DNA from: Bacteroidota bacterium
GTDB taxonomy: Bacteria; Bacteroidota; Bacteroidia; UKL13-3
NCBI GenBank assembly: GCA_027487835.1
Contig: JAIYCU010000012.1
Coordinates: 147,718 to 211,717, forward strand
Reading direction: 5' to 3'
DNA: 64,000 nt
Below, piece by piece: positions 27,672 to 28,714 of the stretch (the stretch's first letter is position 1; every line of letters starts with the position of its first letter). A program made the translations under genes and the position numbers. The notes beneath the pieces are model-generated. The model searched no databases. It had not been told where the DNA came from and saw nothing but the letters and a program-made list of their open reading frames with translations.

Positions 27672-28202
27672 ATGAGCACAACAGGAACTTGGGTTTTAGA
27701 CCCAACCCACAGCGAAATTCTTTTTAAGGTAAAACACTTAATGATTACCAATGTTAAAGGTGAATTCAGAAAGTTTTCAGCCAATATTTTAGGCGAAGAC
27801 TTTACCACAGCGCCAATTGAAGTGAGCATTGATGCCTCTAGCATTTTCACCAATGAAGATAATAGAGATGGTCATTTAAAAGGAGCTGATTTTTTTGATG
27901 TAGAAAACCACAAAGAATTAACCTTTAAAAGCACCTCAGTAAGCAAAGTTGATAGCGAAAACTACCTTTTAAATGGTGTATTAACTATCAAAGGCATAAG
28001 CAATAATATTAGCTTAAACGTAGAATTTGGTGGTGTTAACAAAGATCCATGGGGCAATCAAAAAGCAGGATTTTCTGTAAATGGAAAAATTAATAGAAAA
28101 GACTGGGGCTTAACTTGGAATGCGCCTTTAGAAACAGGCGGATTACTGGTAAGTGAAGAAGTAACTTTGATGGCAGAAGTACAATTTGTAAAACAGGCAT
28201 AA
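27672..28202 (+). CDS. YceI-family protein
   Basis: WVLDPTHSEILFKVKHLMITNVKGEFRKF; DPWGNQKAGFSVNGKINRKDWGLTWN. Confidence 0.93.
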   Translation: MSTTGTWVLDPTHSEILFKVKHLMITNVKGEFRKFSANILGEDFTTAPIEVSIDASSIFTNEDNRDGHLKGADFFDVENHKELTFKSTSVSKVDSENYLLNGVLTIKGISNNISLNVEFGGVNKDPWGNQKAGFSVNGKINRKDWGLTWNAPLETGGLLVSEEVTLMAEVQFVKQA

Positions 28203-28224: not shown

Positions 28225-28258
28225 GCTGTCATAGAGCAATCTATGGCAGCTTTTTTTT
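28225..28258 (+). terminator. Rho-independent terminator after yceI-like gene
   Basis: GCTGTCATAGA-gcaa-TCTATGGCAGC followed by TTTTTTTT. Confidence 0.9.
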
Positions 28259-28287: not shown

Positions 28288-28607
28288 CGCCGAGCCTTAT
28301 TGATGACAAATTTTATCTTATTGATAACCCGCTGAGCCTTATTGATGACAAATTTTGTCTTATTGATGACTTGCTGAGTCTTATTGATGGCAAATTTCAT
28401 CTTATTGATGACTCGCCGAGTCTTATTGATGGCAAATTTTGTCTTATTGATGACCCGACGAGTCTTATTGATGGCAAATTTTGTCTTATTTATGACCCGC
28501 GGAGCCTTATTGATTACAAATTTTGTCTTATTGATGACTCGCCAAGCCTTATTGATGTCAAATTTTGTCTTATTGATGGCAAATTTTGCCTTATTGGATG
28601 ATAAGGC
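28288..28607. repeat. 42-bp tandem array (7 units plus partial), composed of 21-bp-phased CTTATTGAT half-units
   Basis: Units start at 28288, 28330, 28372, 28414, 28456, 28498, 28540; e.g. cgccgagtcttattgatggcaaattttgtcttattgatgacc; ends in GCCTTAT-tggatg-ATAAGGC (28588-28607). Confidence 0.95.
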
Positions 28608-28613
28608 AAAAAA

Positions 28614-28638
28614 AAAGCCCCGAAAAATTCGGGGCTTT
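28614..28638 (-). terminator. Terminator of tRNA-Arg transcript
   Basis: AAAGCCCCGAA-aaa-TTCGGGGCTTT with A-run on + (T-run on -). Confidence 0.88.
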
Positions 28639-28640
28639 GG

Positions 28641-28714
28641 TGGTCTCGACAGGATTCAAACCTGTAACCTTCTGATCCGTAGTCAGATGCTCTATTCAGT
28701 TGAGCTACGAAACC
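28641..28714 (-). tRNA. tRNA-Arg (anticodon ACG)
   Basis: Reverse complement ggtttcgtagctcaactgaatagagcatctgactacggatcagaaggttacaggtttgaatcctgtcgagacca folds as a cloverleaf; anticodon loop ctACGga. Confidence 0.95.

Follow-up and report, generated by a model that had tools for sequence, protein, structure and literature searches.

The window, a 64,000 nt stretch of a Bacteroidota bacterium contig, carries a tandem repeat array in the spacer between a yceI-like gene and a tRNA-Arg gene. The features of this region, with the basis for each call, are as follows.

27672–28202, + strand: yceI-like gene, upstream of the array (ORF list, orthologue search)
about 28225–28257, + strand: terminator-like hairpin and T-run of the yceI-like gene (sequence)
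28288–28295, + strand: CGCCGAGC, a partial G/C-type half-unit or edge-module remnant (GGTCGCCGAGC...) (sequence, array-edge comparison)
28296–28578, + strand: core array, 14 CTTATTGATG-type cores with alternating 11 bp spacers (TRF, core scan)
28579–28608, + strand: degenerate final half-units, ending in the inverted repeat GCCTTAT-TGGATG-ATAAGGC (sequence, fold)
28638–28714, − strand: tRNA-Arg (ACG), a convergent neighbour (ARAGORN)

By TRF, the block at 28288–28578 has a period of 42 bp, 6.9 copies, 89% matches, 0% indels and a score of 428, compared with maximum scores of 37–63 in 20 dinucleotide-block-shuffled windows; it is also called at period 21, with 14.5 copies. A core scan allowing up to two mismatches placed the 14 CTTATTGATG cores at an exact 21 bp spacing, followed by a degenerate fifteenth (CTTATTGGATG). 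The spacers alternate strictly between an A/T-rich type (GRCAAATTTYRY) and a G/C-rich type (ACYCGCCGAGY), and the 42 bp composite unit consists of two 21 bp halves, both with CTTATTGATG. The preliminary description of this DNA had read it in the same way, i.e., as 42 bp units with two cores 21 bp apart, alternating spacers, and a best G/C-rich spacer copy at 28410–28422, where GACTCGCCGAGTC is indeed found. The array had also been placed between a yceI-like terminator and the tRNA terminator, and the sequence and ARAGORN show it between the yceI-like terminator hairpin and a hairpin flanking tRNA-Arg(ACG). The yceI orthologues of genomes G009 and G007 keep a similar terminator-like hairpin; the orthologue search found no array 3′ of it in either genome, and the downstream sequence differs.

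When the window array was searched against the source genome (3.38 Mb, 46 contigs), 17 matches were found at 12 places, on contigs C7, C15, C20, C23 (the window), C26, C28, C35, C41 (two), C42 (two) and C43. A search for the unit elsewhere in the genome, proposed when the array was first described, thus yields 11 further places. This family, referred to here as family 1, comprises 11 full arrays of 9–19 cores and one short remnant (C7), and ten full-length matches to other loci show 81–89% identity. Alternation of the A/T and G/C half-units is strict across the arrays but for three steps from one A/T half to another, and cores are spaced 21 or 42 bp apart; the sole exception, a 38 bp step in L011, is the site of an inserted edge module, described below. 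By ORF context, all 12 sites are intergenic. Raw counts of neighbour orientation were three convergent, three divergent and six co-directional, and no pattern of gene orientation or gene function was visible. Array neighbours presumably include rpsP, coaE, yajC and rluD, the names being read by eye from translations, and the rpsP, coaE and rluD sites are ordinary chromosomal intergenic sites. A tRNA gene lies directly beside the window array only (a second locus has one at a distance of about 2 kb), and its presence there is incidental. The original framing of the array as tRNA-associated does not hold, and that as iteron-like probably fails too. Lone monomers or cores outside arrays were almost lacking in a sample of about 460 kb.

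No match to the array turned up in 40 relatives, of which 18 belong to the same genus, and scanning 84,980 species for the exact pattern, a scan that may omit the window's own record, revealed the composite unit nowhere else. Absence from relatives, combined with a unit occurring nowhere else, had been put forward as the mark of a simple slippage product. The array is absent from the relatives, but the unit is carried by 12 loci; the suggested mutable minisatellite therefore stands as a minisatellite and falls as a product of local slippage. The GTDB pattern scan returned 27 stretches, most of them single core pairs. Seven (L023, L026, L027, L031, L034, L040 and L044), mostly from Bacteroidota-like genomes, are short or long 21 bp arrays that have only CTTATTGATG in common with family 1, a likeness that could be due to chance as the pattern itself selects 21 bp arrays. 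Examples with the CTTATTGATG core are L044:7075–7532 (a Kapaibacterium MAG), L031:896–1361 and L023:6587–6958 (Flavobacterium psychrotolerans); L044 and L031 also have an adjoining 42 bp array, and the F. psychrotolerans array occurs just once in its own genome. Such arrays in unrelated genomes may reflect either chance or deep kinship. Plasmid and phage collections gave no match to the array, and viral contigs gave one unrelated 21 bp array (L048) and four matches of one identical sequence.

Two other families of tandem repeats, both with 22 bp units, were found in the same clade.

L134:1812–2051 (C27) and L135:1852–2092 (C45), source genome: family 2, GGGTACCCATGTTATACCAAGC unit
L109:1812–1949, L110:4154–4300 and L219:1657–1958, G009: family 2, GGGTACCCATGTTATACCAAGC unit
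L142:635–892 (C10), source genome: third family (AGTAGCTTCGCACC..., AGTAGCTTCGCACCATTTATGG)
L138:536–851 and L233:1798–2224, G007: diverged relatives of the third family

Family 2, made up of 22 bp GGGTACCC repeats, occurs in G009, in G007 and twice in the source genome. In G009 it is part of a MITE-like element bounded by GAGTTTACACA and TGTGTAAACTC, ends that may resemble those of the IS256 type. The word AGAGCAAGAGGGAGGAGAAAGAG, found beside the L138 array, also flanks the family 2 array L135. Heptamer-based arrays (GGTTGGCTTTTAGC, CCATGGTCGATGGT) with periods of 7, 14, 21 and 28 bp were seen in intergenic-looking positions at L136 (C33) and L141:858–945.

The orthologous flanks in G009 were examined for six family 1 arrays, those at yceI, rpsP (L010), L012, coaE (L014), L016 and rluD (L017), and three of these spacers (rpsP, coaE and rluD) were found to hold a 22 bp family 2 array. 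Assuming about six such arrays in some 2000 spacers, the chance of this is about 5e-7. The value is rough, since the loci were picked for conserved flanks in draft genomes, the G009 contigs end in repeat just past the shared-site arrays, and contiguity is limited to one flank. In G007 the rpsP spacer is short and contains heptamer-type repeats and no array. At L107:2660–2720, G009 has a truncated duplicate of the coaE start near a contig end, with a longer coaE on another contig. Certain spacers seem to have taken in unrelated arrays one after another, and the shared spacers look like nests where repeats accumulate. That unrelated array families share sites is the most interesting lead to emerge. 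It might mean that conserved spacers are hot spots in which unrelated phased arrays (21 bp family 1, 22 bp GGGTACCC and 22 bp AGTAGCTTCGCACC) are swapped between species since it is the array form, about 10–19 units of 21–22 bp, and not the sequence that would serve a purpose such as chromosome insulation or organisation, but we regard this as a long shot.

Variation among units was compared over 81 A/T and 75 G/C half-units. Differences within arrays were 2.51 and 2.75 for the two half-unit types, against 2.98 and 3.59 between arrays, and for both types none of 2000 permutations was as extreme. Because units are closer within than between arrays, family 1 shows concerted evolution. Polymorphisms are common to several arrays; unit order is not, and copying of whole arrays in a fixed order was not seen. 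The 154 array-by-position-by-base variants include 48 distinct ones, and despite at least 48 distinct substitutions no internal single-base indel was found in the family 1 arrays.

If each CTTATTGATG core were bound by a nucleoid, partition or regulator protein, with one core per two helical turns and at 12 dispersed intergenic sites, then an exact 21 bp spacing free of internal indels might be expected. There is also near-invariance at core positions 3, 4 and 8 and in the A/T-half AAATTT. A DNA-binding function of the arrays is possible but unsupported. However, a core chromosomal system would not be absent from 18 genomes of the same genus, hardly any lone cores occur outside arrays in the sample, and the 12 sites share no orientation or gene-function pattern. 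The sister families are spaced at 22 bp, a drift of about 34 degrees per unit, and are just as free of indels and of changes in unit length. Fixed length is therefore general to these arrays; we read it as stemming from array turnover, and it does not prove phasing. The two-helical-turn phasing emphasised at the outset is probably beside the point, and protein-binding arrays are an unlikely explanation.

A structured RNA, or a form of transcription punctuation, was also considered. Here each half-unit would form a hairpin of 5 bp with a 3 nt loop, and the array would act as a multi-hairpin terminator or stabiliser. The consensus sequences of both half-units are imperfect palindromes that share a register, and the window array folds better than shuffled versions (z −5.0 and −7.2), but good folding is expected of repetitive palindromic DNA anyway. 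Counts of hairpin pairs across the 81 A/T and 75 G/C half-units equalled the expectation from independent columns, giving no covariation support, and in the G/C half pairs 11–21 and 13–19 were formed in 27% and 44% of units. With pairing at the level of independence and several G/C-half pairs mostly broken, a conserved hairpin was rejected; the inverted-repeat spacers proposed in the preliminary description are not maintained as hairpins across units, and its structured-RNA option is correspondingly weak. Moreover, the genes on either side of an array may be convergent, divergent or co-directional, a terminator-like hairpin is already present 5′ of the window array, and in an Rfam scan the array was below gathering score throughout, with only the tRNA reaching its own. 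An RNA-level role for the arrays is very unlikely.

The period is a multiple of three and forward frame 1 (LIDDKFC-LIDDSPS) is open, with 0 new stops among the variants against 2.2 expected, as would suit a translated repeat. The synonymous share in this frame, however, is 0.26 against 0.25 expected, and no forward open frame is enriched for synonymous change. One reverse frame (p = 0.004) gained more stops than expected, and was rejected as coding. All arrays are intergenic, with no consistent start or neighbouring frame, and the 22 bp units of the sister families cannot hold a frame. Translation of the repeat is thus hardly credible, in keeping with the earlier view that the array is probably not translated.

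Modules resembling GGTCGCCGAGCRGAGYCGAGGCGC flank several arrays, on a single side or on both, and are directly oriented; several array edges show nothing but this module of about 25 bp. A looser pattern of the edge module (GAGCN(2-5)GYCGAGGYG) occurs nine times in the source genome, six of them at array edges. G007 and G009 have five occurrences each, some of them in tandem copies that are not related to family 1, and because it is found outside arrays there the module probably predates the family. Its CGCCGAGC portion is similar to the G/C half, and one may have been derived from the other. An all-against-all BLAST of the 400 bp flanks returned only matches of about 25 bp among L009, L012 and L018 and one 69 bp match between L013 and L018; the sole inverted match was of 30 bp and heptamer-type. 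The family 1 flanks contain no terminal inverted repeats (TIRs) and no long shared leader or tail. Target-site duplications were not found for family 1, and the orthologous spacers of G007 and G009 contain other repeats or other sequence, with no clean empty site. Two Y1_Tnp genes are present in the source genome, neither with the CTTATTGATG core or edge module nearby, and a REP element mobilised by a RAYT was rejected on this ground. Elsewhere, L132:2472–2867 (C27) carries 30 bp and 73 bp tandem hairpin repeats (CCCCTTCGGGGC, CATAGGGTATCGCCCTATG) that are REP-like, in the same 4.5 kb stretch as a Y1 transposase gene match.

The edge module could instead mark a true, BrickBuilt-like MITE with decayed ends, in which GGTCGCCGAGCRGAGYCGAGGCGC would be the remnant terminus of an element mobilised by a resident or lost transposase. 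Its enrichment at array edges fits such an origin, as does the MITE-borne family 2 of the same clade, and 3 of 19 BrickBuilt elements also have neither leader nor tail (PMC4596501). Against this, the module is direct rather than inverted at both ends, it is also present outside arrays in both G007 and G009, and neither Y1 transposase locus carries it or the core. We consider a decayed MITE highly improbable.

The window block is instead likely to belong to a family of dispersed, non-coding minisatellites that is specific to this species and selfish or neutral, and family 1 is most likely a young, species-restricted repeat. The observations above show a unit of fixed length that is dispersed over one genome, always between genes, is more uniform within an array than from one array to another, and is missing from the relatives. 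This reading as a dispersed minisatellite is also supported by the sister 22 bp families, which behave alike, by the three G009 spacers that hold family 2 and by the BrickBuilt analogue (PMC4596501). Arrays would grow and homogenise via slippage or unequal recombination, while ready-made arrays would spread by ectopic recombination or by a non-autonomous transposition route, and land or survive in repeat nests between genes, where insertions are tolerated. Being selfish or neutral, they would require no specific binding protein. The route of dispersal is hypothetical, because TIRs, target-site duplications and long shared flanks were not found for family 1. The absence of indels could also reflect selection on unit length, which counts against a selfish or neutral family.

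A view of one locus is misleading here: the array looks like a binding site, whereas genome-wide it is most likely a young, species-restricted repeat family. Several unrelated families of 21–22 bp arrays, partly in the same spacers, make up a natural system of minisatellite birth, dispersal and replacement, and the same clade also allows one to ask if the array form is selected.

Among known repeats, mycobacterial interspersed repetitive units (MIRU) likewise place tandem arrays of a single unit between genes at many scattered loci, with a unit that is not known to be related in size or sequence to that of family 1. Plasmid iterons are direct repeats of about 20–22 bp in a row, whereas family 1 occupies many loci, several beside housekeeping genes, and no initiator or origin was noticed among the neighbours read by eye. 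A CRISPR-like array was rejected, as the spacers are of two recurring types and not unique. The TAACTGA or heptamer repeats form intergenic direct-repeat arrays that are recorded in Bacteroidetes, are mostly found immediately 5′ of start codons in Beggiatoaceae and, in described cases, are missing from the same spacer in close relatives (PMC4679880). Family 1 shows no placement upstream of start codons, and its unit is not a heptamer.

The nearest described systems are BOX and BrickBuilt. BOX of Streptococcus pneumoniae has definite ends, boxA and boxC, with TIRs that resemble ISSpn2 (PMC3049150). Like family 1, it is an interspersed repeat built of modules, in which end modules enclose a tandem module of variable copy number, but the edge modules of family 1 are on some arrays only and no parent IS was found. 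BrickBuilt, a MITE minisatellite of Porphyromonas gingivalis, has a single 23 bp unit and, in most copies, a leader and tail with TIRs (PMC4596501). Both it and family 1 occupy at least a dozen loci, strictly between genes, with tandem units of about 20 bp whose number varies; both are species-restricted and have units with conserved and variable halves. Family 1 differs in its alternating 42 bp composite unit and in having no TIRs or leader and tail that could be found, and because of these missing ends we do not class it as a MITE. The 22 bp GGGTACCC repeats of family 2 match BrickBuilt better than family 1 does.
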